A stretch of 34,253 nucleotides of DNA. Source: Candidatus Desulfosporosinus infrequens (lineage in GTDB: Bacteria > Bacillota > Desulfitobacteriia > Desulfitobacteriales > Desulfitobacteriaceae). Positions 9,503 through 28,524 of the stretch are shown piece by piece (position 1 is the first letter of the stretch; every line of letters starts with the position of its first letter). Both the position numbers and the translations under genes were made by a program. The stretch lies in NCBI GenBank assembly GCA_900290375.1, contig OMOF01000668.1:1-34253 (forward strand), read 5' to 3'. A model generated the notes under the pieces. The model made no database searches. It saw nothing but the letters and a program-made list of their open reading frames with translations, and was not told the origin of the DNA.

Positions 9503-9847
9503 AACCACAGATTACACAGATTAACACAGAATTAAAAAATACATTTTTAGCTCTAAAATATCAATCGCTTGTAACGCAATTGATATTCGCCATTTTTCTA
9601 TACTTAATTCTGATTCTGCTGCAGAAACCCCTTGTCATGCTATTAATATCACGTTTTATTGTCATCCTGAGCGAAGCGAAGGATCTTAAGGTCCTAGATC
9701 CTTCGCTCTCACTCAGGATGACACAAAAATAATTGCAGTGACTTGATATTTTATATCATTTTAGACTTTCTGCAGGGGAATCAATTCTTCTTAATCTGTG
9801 ATATCTGTGGTTTCTCTTATCGTTCTTTTCATGTGTAATCTGTGGTT
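9503..9847. repeat. Outer inverted repeat (CACAGAT-type arms) interrupted by the inner MITE-like element
   Basis: AACCACAGATTACACAGATTAA (9503-9524) versus TTAATCTGTGATATCTGTGGTT (9791-9812), plus TGTGTAATCTGTGGTT (9832-9847). Confidence 0.7.
9612..9782 (+). mobile_element. MITE-like element, copy 1 (171 bp)
   Basis: Ends GATTCTGCTGCAG...CTGCAGGGGAATC; 6-bp TSD AATTCT at 9606-9611 and 9783-9788; internal hairpin GTCATCCTGAGCGAAGCGAAGGATC.../...GATCCTTCGCTCTCACTCAGGATGAC; near-identical to 28179..28357 in opposite orientation. Confidence 0.85.
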
Positions 9848-24323: not shown

Positions 24324-24935
24324 TCATAAAATTAATTGTTGCAACTTTTCTTGTCCCTCGGATGACCCCGCTGCTAAAAGAACATCTTCGCCACGCAGGA
24401 CAAAACCAGCTTCCGGAGAAAATTGTTCAAAGCCGTCTCGAACCACAGCAATAATAGTTGTTCCAGTACGCTCTCGAATCTTTAATTCCCGCAAGGTTTT
24501 CCCAATTGCCGGAGAAGTTTTTCCAATTTCGATTTCCCCAACATCCAGCCAACGGGACATTATTCGATCAGCATATCCCCGCAATTTGAGTAAATGGCTT
24601 TCAATTTTTAAATCATTTTCACGTCTTATATCCATAAGTTTTTTTAAATCTTCTAGAAAAACCTGGATTTCTCCTTTTTGATTAAACGATTTAATAAATT
24701 TTTCTGCCATAGCTTTTGACGTGACAGTAATCCCTACACCTTGACTAACTACAACAACCCCAATATTCTGTAAAATCGCGATGGCACGGCGAATGGTTTC
24801 CGGCGAAACATTATACCGCCCTGCCAAAGTAGAACGACCATGAATTTTTTCTCCTTCATGGTATTCTCCCATCATAATGGCGTGAGCTAAATCGATGGCA
24901 ATTTCCTGGTAACGTGCTTGGTCCAATACCTTCAA
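24324..24935 (-). CDS. GntR-type winged helix fused to RCK_C (TrkA_C): BusR-like regulator
   Basis: N-terminal 'YQEIAIDLAHAIMMGEYHEGEKIHGRSTLAGRYNVSPETIRRAIAIL'; C-terminal RCK_C 'VGEIEIGKTSPAIGKTLRELKIRERTGTTIIAVVRDG...LRGEDVLLAAGSSEGQEKL'. Confidence 0.9.
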   Translation of the reverse strand: MKVLDQARYQEIAIDLAHAIMMGEYHEGEKIHGRSTLAGRYNVSPETIRRAIAILQNIGVVVVSQGVGITVTSKAMAEKFIKSFNQKGEIQVFLEDLKKLMDIRRENDLKIESHLLKLRGYADRIMSRWLDVGEIEIGKTSPAIGKTLRELKIRERTGTTIIAVVRDGFEQFSPEAGFVLRGEDVLLAAGSSEGQEKLQQLIL

Positions 24936-25445: not shown

Positions 25446-25464
25446 CGATCCCTCGGGGTCGCTA
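25446..25464. terminator. Hairpin between convergent genes
   Basis: GCGATCCC-TC-GGGGTCGC followed by TATTTCTTTG on the + strand. Confidence 0.5.
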
Positions 25465-26379
25465 TTTCTTTGCCCTTTTCCCTTGCCATGTATCTCGTCG
25501 TGCTAATTCCTCATCAATTGCATTGAGAACTTCCCATTTTTTGCGGCTCCAGAGCGGGCCAAGGAGAGTATCAGGTGGCCCGTCTCCAGTTAAACGCTGA
25601 ATAACTATTTCAGGAGGTAGGATTTCTAAAATGTCAACTACGAGCGAAACATAATCATCTTTCGTCATCAGCTCAAATGGTTCGCGCTGATAAATTGCCG
25701 CCAATGGGGTTCCTTTTAAAATATGGAGCAAATGAATCTTGATCCCTTGGAGAGGCATCTTCGCAACCGCTTGTGCAGTAGCCATCATCTCAGCTTTTGT
25801 TTCCCCAGGCAAGCCGAGAATTATATGGACACAAACTCGGATTCCTCGTGAGTGCAACATCTCAAGGCCCTTCAGGAATTGGGCATAGTTATGACCTCTT
25901 TCAATCCATTGCATAGTTCGATCATGAATACTTTGCAACCCCAGTTCGACCCACAAATAGGTTCTCTGATTCAGCTCTTCCAAATAATCCAACACATTCT
26001 CTGGCAAGCAGTCCGGCCTGGTTGAGATGGCTAGCCCTACAACGTTCTCCTCCGCCAAGGCTGCTTCATAGACCTCATGCAACCTCTCTACTGGTGCATA
26101 AGTATTGGTATAGGCTTGAAAATAAGCAATATAGTTGGCATAGGGCCATTTTTTCTTCATCCTTGCCGTCACTTCAATAAACTGATCGTGCAGGGATAAC
26201 CCCTGTTTTCCGGCAAAGTCCCCGGACCCCCGTTCGCTACAATAGACACACCCATCCCGCCCTAACGTCCCATCCCGGTTAGGGCAGGTAAATCCAGCGT
26301 CCAAGGAGACCTTAAAGATTTTTCCACCGAACCTTTCCCGCAAATGTTCATTAAAGGTGTGATATCGTTTCTGTTGCAT
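25462..26379 (-). CDS. TIGR01212 family radical SAM protein (YtqA/YhcC-like)
   Basis: 'MQQKRYHTFNEHLRERFGGKIFKVSLDAGFTCPNRDGTLGRDGCVYCSERGSGDFAG', 'WVELGLQSIHDRTMQWIERGH', 'CVHIILGLPGE'. Confidence 0.93.
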   Translation of the reverse strand: MQQKRYHTFNEHLRERFGGKIFKVSLDAGFTCPNRDGTLGRDGCVYCSERGSGDFAGKQGLSLHDQFIEVTARMKKKWPYANYIAYFQAYTNTYAPVERLHEVYEAALAEENVVGLAISTRPDCLPENVLDYLEELNQRTYLWVELGLQSIHDRTMQWIERGHNYAQFLKGLEMLHSRGIRVCVHIILGLPGETKAEMMATAQAVAKMPLQGIKIHLLHILKGTPLAAIYQREPFELMTKDDYVSLVVDILEILPPEIVIQRLTGDGPPDTLLGPLWSRKKWEVLNAIDEELARRDTWQGKRAKK

Positions 26380-26386
26380 AATTACG

Positions 26387-28006
26387 CTACGCTTGATATA
26401 ATTCGAGTTTTTCCCCACTAGGACCACGGAAAAAGAAATTATACCGTCCTTCGCCTAAAGCCATAGGCTCAGAAGAGATCAACTCCACCTGATATGCTTG
26501 TAAATGCTCAACGGCTTTAAAAATATCCGCTACCCTCAGGGCTAAATGATTGACAACCCCATCGTCAAAACGTTGACCATCGACCACTTCAACGAGCTCT
26601 ACGATGGTACCCCCTAATTCCAAAAAAACCAGTTCCACATCTCCTGGTTTAATCCGATATAAAAACTTAAAGCCAAGTACCTCTTGGTAGAACCGAAGTG
26701 CCTTCTCCAGATCCACAGCCTTGATTCCAATGTGTTCGACTCCCATAAAAAGGGATTTGCTTTCCATTTTCTCCATAGTTCCCCTCCTCAAACTCTTTTC
26801 CTCAGTTCTTTCGCTTATTAAGGGCAGAATAGCACCCTCCAACTCTAATAGTCTTTGCTTAATGTCCAAGCCTCCGGCGTAACCCGTCAAATTTCCGTTT
26901 TTACCAATGACTCGATGACAAGGGACCATAACTGCAATTGGATTTCTATGATTTGCCATACCCACTGCTCTCTGCCCTTTCAGATTTTCCACCTTTGTAG
27001 CGATATCACCATAAGTACGTGTCTCTCCGTAAGGAATACGCAGAAGTTCCTCCCAAACTAGAAGTTGAAACGGTGTACCGAGCTGATGAAGCGGAATCGT
27101 AAACTCCTTGCGGTTTCCTGTTAGGTACTCTTGAAACTGACGAATAGCTTCACCATTCGGTTCGCGCTTCGGAATTAGAAACCCTTTTGGCAACCAACGT
27201 GACGCCCATATCCGTAAGGACTGTTCCTCCTCAACCGAGGGACCGAGTCCTAACCAACACAACCCCACCGAAGTGGAGGCAACCGTTAATTCGACTTCAA
27301 GGTCATGGATCATCAGCTTTTCTGTCCAAAAAGCAACAGTCTGAGCCTGCCAAAGTTCCTGTACACGGTAGCTCCGTAGTTCTCCATCTTGATAAAGTTC
27401 GAGTGAACCTTGATCATTTTTCAATCGTTGATCCAACTCTTGGGGGATACTCCATTTAGGCCCTTCAGCACGATAAAGAGCAAAGTCATCATGAGGTATC
27501 TTCACTAGAGTATAGATCAAAGCCGCCAACCCCCGTGCTAACGATTCCTCAGACTCTAAGAAAGGCCGTATGCGTTCTTCCAGCGGGTCCACCAAGTGTG
27601 GATTGACTTGAGCCAATTGTCCCAGCCCCCATAGAGCGCCATCTCTCAAACTTTCATCTTCCAAGAGCCCAGAAAGCATCCAGTTAAACTGTCCACACGT
27701 CTCCGAACAATGAGCAATCAGGCTACCTATAGCCTCAGACGCATTCCAAGCCGTCCCCCCTGATTCTTCATTAAGCATCCAAAAATATCGTCGCACTAGT
27801 TCCAGAGCATAGTTTCGCTCTTTCTGCTCGATATAGTGAGCGAAAACCCCTAAGGCTTCTACCGCTCGCCAAAAGACGATTCCATCTTTAACATAAATTC
27901 GTGCCATCAGTTGTCGATAGAGACTCTTATTTTCGTCGCCCCAAGCGAATAGTTGCTTCCAATCCCGGTTCTCTAAGATTCGCTCCACATCTCTTTTCGT
28001 AGGCAT
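26387..28006 (-). CDS. Triple-domain protein: HEAT-repeat (DVU0298-like), methylated-DNA-cysteine methyltransferase (Ogt-like), VOC/glyoxalase domain
   Basis: Single ORF (26387..28102; likely start MPTKRD at 28006). HEAT-like 'FWRAVEALGVFAHYI...DESLRDGALWGLGQLAQVNPHLV', Ogt 'GTPFQLLVWEELLRIPYGETRTYGDIA...VGMANHRNPIAVMVPCHRVIGKNGNLTGYAGG', VOC 'GVEHIGIKAVDLEKALRFYQEVLGF...GPSGEKLELYQA'. Confidence 0.88.
   Translation of the reverse strand: MPTKRDVERILENRDWKQLFAWGDENKSLYRQLMARIYVKDGIVFWRAVEALGVFAHYIEQKERNYALELVRRYFWMLNEESGGTAWNASEAIGSLIAHCSETCGQFNWMLSGLLEDESLRDGALWGLGQLAQVNPHLVDPLEERIRPFLESEESLARGLAALIYTLVKIPHDDFALYRAEGPKWSIPQELDQRLKNDQGSLELYQDGELRSYRVQELWQAQTVAFWTEKLMIHDLEVELTVASTSVGLCWLGLGPSVEEEQSLRIWASRWLPKGFLIPKREPNGEAIRQFQEYLTGNRKEFTIPLHQLGTPFQLLVWEELLRIPYGETRTYGDIATKVENLKGQRAVGMANHRNPIAVMVPCHRVIGKNGNLTGYAGGLDIKQRLLELEGAILPLISERTEEKSLRRGTMEKMESKSLFMGVEHIGIKAVDLEKALRFYQEVLGFKFLYRIKPGDVELVFLELGGTIVELVEVVDGQRFDDGVVNHLALRVADIFKAVEHLQAYQVELISSEPMALGEGRYNFFFRGPSGEKLELYQA
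26774..26789 (-). promoter_or_regulatory. Internal ribosome-binding site and in-frame ATG before the VOC domain
   Basis: Minus strand GAGGAGGGGAACTATGGAG; ATG at 26776-26774 is codon 443 of the 571-codon ORF. Confidence 0.7.
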
Positions 28007-28178
28007 TGGACACCTGCTCTCTTTAAGTGAATTTATCTTTCTTTTAGTGAATTTCTCTTTTGGTTTACTCTTTTGGTTTTCTTTTTCACTTTCCTCAGCC
28101 ATTTGTTTTAATTTCTACATCTGTTTCTTTCCTAGTTAGGAATAATCTTATCATATTTCAATATAACAATGTAATATT

Positions 28179-28357
28179 GATTCCCCTGCAGAAAGTATAA
28201 AATGATATAAAATATCAAGTCACTGCAATTATTTTGGTGTCATCCTGAGCGAGAGCGAAGGATCTAGGGCCTTAAGATCCTTCGCTTCGCTCAGGATGAC
28301 AATAAAATGTGATATTAATAGCATGACAAGGGGTCTGGCGCACTCTGCAGCAGAATC
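28179..28357 (-). mobile_element. MITE-like element, copy 2 (179 bp), opposite orientation to copy 1
   Basis: GATTCCCCTGCAG...CTGCAGCAGAATC; 6-bp TSD AATATT at 28173-28178 and 28358-28363; reverse complement differs from copy 1 by a few substitutions and one 8-bp length difference near one end. Confidence 0.85.
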
Positions 28358-28426
28358 AATATTGTATTACGAAAAACCGAGGCTGTGCCTTGATCCTTTT
28401 ATTGTTCTTAGATATCATCTTCGTAG

Positions 28427-28446: not shown

Positions 28447-28502
28447 TCGTGCTTCATCAGTGGTGCCGCATTGTGGCATGGGCGTCTGATACGTAAAAAA
28501 AA

Positions 28503-28524
28503 CGGTCCCGAAAAAGGGACCGCG
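28503..28524 (-). terminator. Rho-independent terminator of the tautomerase gene
   Basis: Minus strand CGGTCCC-TTTTTC-GGGACCG-TTTTTTTT. Confidence 0.9.

Follow-up and report, generated by a model that had tools for sequence, protein, structure and literature searches.

A clade-limited HEAT–Ogt–VOC fusion in Desulfosporosinus, apparently built stepwise from syntenic neighbors

A single reading frame joining a HEAT-repeat region, an O6-alkylguanine-DNA alkyltransferase (Ogt) and a VOC/glyoxalase-fold domain is encoded in Candidatus Desulfosporosinus infrequens (contig OMOF01000668.1, positions 1 to 34,253; this whole stretch of 34,253 nucleotides is called the window). An initial annotation of this DNA had proposed three domains in one frame, and ORF reading and translation bear it out: the frame runs without a stop over 539 codons, from 28006 to 26387 of the minus strand, and yields HEAT, Ogt and VOC profile matches above their cut-offs (Table 1). 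The mechanical ORF start is at 28102, 5′ of the relative-supported ATG at 28006, and residues are numbered here along the 539-aa protein from its MPTKRDV start. The observed architecture, distribution, synteny, selection and linker differences are best explained, with a probability of roughly 0.78, by a real, recent and clade-limited fusion of known domains that proceeded stepwise from syntenic neighbors and left Ogt and VOC largely independent; the enzymatic activities, partner binding and dual products that complete this explanation are predicted.

Table 1. Features of the fused gene and its surroundings, in window coordinates
Feature	Position	Strand	Basis
HEAT-Ogt-VOC fused ORF, 539 aa	26387..28006	-	Start ATG (MPTKRDV) common to relatives
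DVU0298-family HEAT solenoid, residues 1-222, beta-hairpin at end	27341..28006	-	NF045662 E 5.5e-65; AlphaFold pLDDT 88.5
Ogt / O6-alkylguanine-DNA alkyltransferase, N- and C-domains, residues 223-390	26837..27340	-	PF01035 and TIGR00589 over cut-off; PDB relatives 4wxd/4bhb
PCHR active-site motif (residues 362-365), predicted acceptor Cys363	26912..26923	-	Sequence; invariant in 23 aligned relatives
Linker, 28 residues, low model confidence, former intergenic region	26753..26836	-	Junction comparison and full-length model
In-frame SD-like GAGGAGGGG, apparent relic or active signal of separate VOC gene	26781..26789	-	Sequence, pairing energy
Internal in-frame ATG, possible start of free VOC	26774..26776	-	Sequence
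VOC/glyoxalase-fold domain, residues 419-539	26390..26752	-	PF00903; alignments to solved VOC proteins
mnmL/ytqA radical SAM tRNA-modification gene, 7 nt 3′ of fusion stop	25462..26379	-	TIGR01212 E 4e-120; synteny
Terminator-like hairpin, interval between dmpI and fused gene	28502..28523	-	Pattern match alone
Weak sigma-70-like promoter match, 5′ of fused gene	28194..28223	-	Pattern match alone, 9/12

The Ogt–VOC fusion is carried by 9 of the 30 Desulfosporosinus genomes examined: the window genome, MAG_BO167, MAG_BO295, OKU5, UBA5188, UBA4726, G010, D. fructosivorans 63.6F and BRH_c37. Because the same frame is open in eight other genomes (G022, G025, G004, G012, G024, G016, G010 and G014), it reflects neither chance nor assembly. 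D. fructosivorans 63.6F (G012) is an isolate, with the fusion on an 827 kb contig; in G010, 342 codons of the frame were found and the HEAT part was not seen there. The initial annotation had worried that an assembly or sequencing artefact might hide a stop or frameshift, and the window genome is indeed fragmented (971 contigs) with an estimated contamination of 6.75%. Recurrence of the fusion in eight further assemblies, one of them from an isolate, together with codon-level purifying selection and in-frame indels, makes an artefact extremely improbable, and with nine independent assemblies sharing the same fusion this explanation was rejected.

Most other Desulfosporosinus genomes encode a HEAT–Ogt protein of about 400 aa followed by a separate VOC gene. 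The suggestion that orthologs might always be separate genes thus describes most of the genus but fails for the nine genomes carrying the fusion. VOC was not found at the ogt locus in Desulfosporosinus genomes G003 and G009; in G005 it is its own frame on a different contig, and G026, where the Ogt frame covers just 204 codons close to the end of a contig, was left out of the fused/split call. Outside Desulfosporosinus, no Ogt–VOC fusion was seen among 83 genomes of the class, in keeping with the earlier view that the architecture is unusual, and no description of an Ogt–glyoxalase or HEAT–Ogt fusion was found in the literature searched.

Comparison of the junctions shows how the frame is maintained. 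In the eight main-clade fused genes, the linker spans GAILPLIS... to LF.GV.HIG and can be aligned codon by codon; frame 0 is open in all eight species, frames 1 and 2 contain stops, and lengths differ by 0, 9 or 12 nt, all multiples of 3. Between main-clade fused pairs, pN/pS is 0.05–0.26 in HEAT, Ogt and VOC and 0.37–0.59 in the linker; judged by these ratios, purifying selection acts on all three domains, none of which is decaying. Desulfosporosinus sp. BG has a linker of equal length split by a single in-frame TAG, with an SD preceding the ATG; in D. metallidurans and others, both spacer and frame differ. In a tree built from the concatenation of seven syntenic genes, support at the BG node is 68/44, and BG could have retained an ancestral split in frame instead of having reverted to it. 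BRH_c37 is placed apart from the main fused clade (relevant branches 94/90 and 99/98) and has a much shorter linker (LELENKGETTMENLF); given its own linker and separate position, its fusion apparently arose independently. The fused label requires three state changes on this tree, at least two of them forced by well-supported branches.

Throughout the genus, the genes run in the order dmpI – (HEAT-)ogt – VOC – mnmL – gntR/TrkA_C – acpS – nnr, an order that Desulfitobacterium-like genomes largely share. In further genera, Ogt lacks the HEAT part and VOC adjoins it or lies close by; a neighboring family has ogt – mnmL – gntR without VOC. Since five of the family's genera already have ogt and VOC side by side or close together, the fusion joined pre-existing neighbors, and since HEAT–Ogt is spread over four of its genera, it is older than the VOC fusion. 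The same HEAT–Ogt part is found in Acididesulfobacillus, in other Desulfosporosinus and in Desulfitobacterium-like genomes, and the last of these and most Desulfosporosinus also share the gene order of the fused locus, but in these relatives VOC either follows as a gene of its own or is missing from the locus. In the stepwise origin that we favor, a DVU0298-type HEAT protein would have been joined to the N-terminus of Ogt among the ancestors of several genera. Within a single Desulfosporosinus lineage, the stop codon between the HEAT–Ogt and VOC genes was then apparently lost and the spacer opened in frame, so that ribosomes would read on into VOC; this opening was apparently repeated in BRH_c37.

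Several features of the surrounding DNA were recorded alongside. The regulator at 24324-24935 of the window combines a GntR DNA-binding domain with a TrkA_C ligand domain, and its synteny is kept across the family. A REP-like palindrome around GTCATCCTGAGCGAAGCGAAGGATC lies at 28231-28308 and 9661-9685, with 20 copies in the genome (≤2 mismatches) versus 0 for the reversed control. The element at 28231-28308 is flanked by a 25-nt inverted repeat (28168-28192 / 28344-28368), and together they may form a small MITE-like insertion that separates dmpI from the fused gene. Acididesulfobacillus acetoxydans (L075/L143; chromosome about 3.62 Mb) has, besides an intact HEAT–Ogt gene at 1.25 Mb, a second copy in two frames (455 and 109 aa), which is likely a paralogue broken by a frameshift.

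The HEAT region clearly belongs to the DVU0298 family (NCBIfam NF045662, DVU0298_fam; 219 bits vs a cut-off of 75), whose members often stand alone at about 225 aa rather than being fused to Ogt as here. Modeled on its own, it forms ten helices followed by a short helix and the hairpin. The initial annotation had pointed to AlkC/AlkD kinship, and HEAT-fold DNA glycosylases are known, AlkD-type proteins having a positively charged DNA-binding surface (PMC4433238). A glycosylase or DNA clamp of this type, widening the lesion range of Ogt, would also be compatible with the separate HEAT and ogt genes that are near neighbors in two genomes (G199, G230). The searches speak against it: the fused protein shows no match to the Pfam AlkD-family profile at E ≤ 0.1, a PDB sequence search with the HEAT part gave no meaningful relative, and a PDB fold search with the HEAT model gave nothing below E 1e-3, with AlkD absent from the best 50 matches. 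Net charge and pI calculated from sequence for the whole domain are −10 and 5.0, which may also speak against a positive surface of the AlkD type. AlkD kinship was rejected since profile, PDB sequence and fold searches were all without AlkD, and a glycosylase or clamp role appears very unlikely. The best fold matches were designed repeat proteins, the archaeal HEAT protein TON_1937, TOG, PP2A-A, adaptin and importin. Because these are generic protein-binding HEAT/ARM folds, AlkD is missing from the best 50 and the domain is acidic, protein binding is favored: on the model, the HEAT part is most likely a protein-binding scaffold or localization module, and it would dock a partner rather than act as a DNA glycosylase.

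Other contexts of this family were noted. Stand-alone DVU0298 genes have varied neighbors, among which TPR proteins recur at six loci. In two genomes of one genus (L103, L104), ogt and an EamA-type transporter gene lie together with such a HEAT gene, a HEAT–Ogt link without fusion. In another Firmicutes lineage (L044-L046, L049-L051, L057, L058), DVU0298 HEAT has another fusion partner at its N-terminus, a domain that carries the motifs CPFCGLP and CSCGAVYACD and is likely a zinc-binding module. In the literature searched, DVU0298 appeared in one table entry alone, which groups it with CO-dehydrogenase genes and has probably confused it with another locus tag.

The middle of the protein is a complete Ogt by TIGR00589 (E 2.7e-31, 107 bits vs a cut-off of 46.4) and PF01035 (E 6.8e-33, 113 bits vs a cut-off of 27), and its closest solved relatives are Ogt crystal structures. 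ATL proteins carry Trp or Ala in place of the acceptor Cys; in the fused protein and its relatives, Cys363 of the catalytic motif is invariant (Table 1). Like Ogt/MGMT, the protein has complete N- and C-domains and the PCHR motif within a RAVG..N-P..PCHRVIG..G.L.GYAGG context; it differs in the added N-terminal HEAT and C-terminal VOC. The Ogt part would act as an ordinary suicide alkyltransferase, flipping O6-alkylguanine or O4-alkylthymine and transferring the alkyl group to Cys363. It is the sole ogt-family match in the 99%-complete window genome. Multidomain AGT fusions are known, namely AGT–EndoV of Ferroplasma acidarmanus, ATL–EndoV of archaea and Caenorhabditis elegans AGT-2 (PMC10779285). 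These likewise combine an alkyltransferase with another functional domain, but there the alkyltransferase is paired with endonuclease V or a histone-like domain (PMC10779285), and here with HEAT as a scaffold and VOC as a small-molecule domain. A phage or defence origin of the fusion was rejected because PADLOC gave no match and PHROGs returned a generic Ogt-type and a VOC-type family and nothing else.

The C-terminal domain belongs to the VOC superfamily (PF00903, E 2.1e-14, 54 bits vs a cut-off of 20.6), and PDB sequence matches to this end of the protein are weak ones to VOC proteins. Pairwise alignment to solved VOC proteins assigns H425, E470, H487 and E535 as predicted metal ligands, an H-E-H-E pattern that would resemble a GlxI-type site. 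Family-level homology and, as predicted by alignment, the metal-site pattern are shared with methylmalonyl-CoA epimerase, glyoxalase I and YaeR, but the domain falls below all of their equivalog cut-offs, including those for glyoxalase I (TIGR00068, 32 bits vs 120; NF050074, 31 vs 165) and methylmalonyl-CoA epimerase (TIGR03081, 47 vs 115). An epimerase function, raised by the initial annotation, is disfavored and was rejected on this score and on the presence of a bona fide epimerase elsewhere in the genome, a different gene that reaches 138 bits against TIGR03081 and adjoins an mmdA-like gene. Judging from its sequence, the VOC part is probably an enzyme that depends on a metal and acts on a small molecule; it would carry the H-E-H-E site on a flexible tether and work largely independently of Ogt. 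In a related family, close relatives of the domain (about 61–67% identity; L070, L071) lie beside molybdenum-hydroxylase maturation or UbiD-like/FAH-like genes, named by reading translations, and these neighbors hint at the substrate class.

Coupling of alkylation repair to methylglyoxal detoxification, as initially proposed, is not supported. The only methylglyoxal adduct reported from genomic DNA is the N2-guanine lesion CEdG, for which nucleotide excision repair has been discussed (PMC9580021); as this is not an O6 lesion, a direct shared substrate is unlikely, though the presence of mgsA in the window genome leaves a methylglyoxal role with some probability. More broadly, functional coupling of DNA repair and detoxification is possible, and Ogt and VOC could form a selected bifunctional electrophile-defence enzyme, Ogt repairing alkylation and the tethered VOC removing methylglyoxal or whichever other alkylating or electrophilic compound is involved. 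The proximity of ogt and VOC in five genera, the apparent double origin of the fusion, the loss of the internal start in UBA5188 and G010 (see below), the mgsA gene found in the window genome and the GlxI-like ligand pattern suggested by alignment all fit such an enzyme. Against it stand the absence of VOC from the locus in G003 and G009, its occurrence in other families among unrelated molybdenum-hydroxylase or UbiD-type genes, scores far below the GlxI cut-offs, the N2 position of the adduct and the split form in BG, and we regard it as improbable. The fuller version, in which HEAT docks a partner, VOC destroys the electrophile whose adducts Ogt repairs, and a selected, twice-fused enzyme is obligate where the internal start is lost, is slightly less probable still.

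Whether the stepwise fusion yields one product or two turns on the former VOC start. The SD and ATG of the VOC gene are kept in frame in most fused genes, including that of the window. Pairing of the SD with the 16S tail is about −10 to −13 kcal/mol in fused genes keeping the ATG (−10.8 to −12.8 kcal/mol in those of the main clade) and similar in split genes. In UBA5188 the internal ATG is ACG, with a pairing of −6.5 kcal/mol, and in G010 it is GCG, with −9.8 kcal/mol. Where SD and ATG survive, as in the window gene, a free VOC protein may also be made; this comparison suggests two products in most fused species and an obligate fusion in UBA5188 and G010. A later ATG just 5′ of the VOC core could also be used as a start. 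That the cell mostly makes separate HEAT–Ogt and VOC, by internal initiation or linker proteolysis, with the fused polypeptide as a minor product, is suggested by the strong in-frame SD and ATG of most fused species and by the linker being predicted to be unstructured: in the full-length model (pLDDT 70), the linker is mostly below 40 and the VOC part is low, the latter probably for lack of sequences. We hold this to be a serious but rather unlikely reading: the frame stays open in UBA5188 and G010, where the start is lost, and a linker without a stop leads one to expect a full-length product unless translation drops off. Two apparent origins together with internal-start loss in two species could reflect selection for the fusion rather than neutrality.

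The fusion ties an uncharacterized HEAT family, DVU0298, and a VOC enzyme to the sole ogt detected in the window genome. The locus also provides a natural series, from ogt beside VOC through HEAT–Ogt beside VOC to HEAT–Ogt–VOC, with one linker split by a TAG, which illustrates the birth of a multidomain protein from gene neighbors, its internal start mostly kept and lost in two species.
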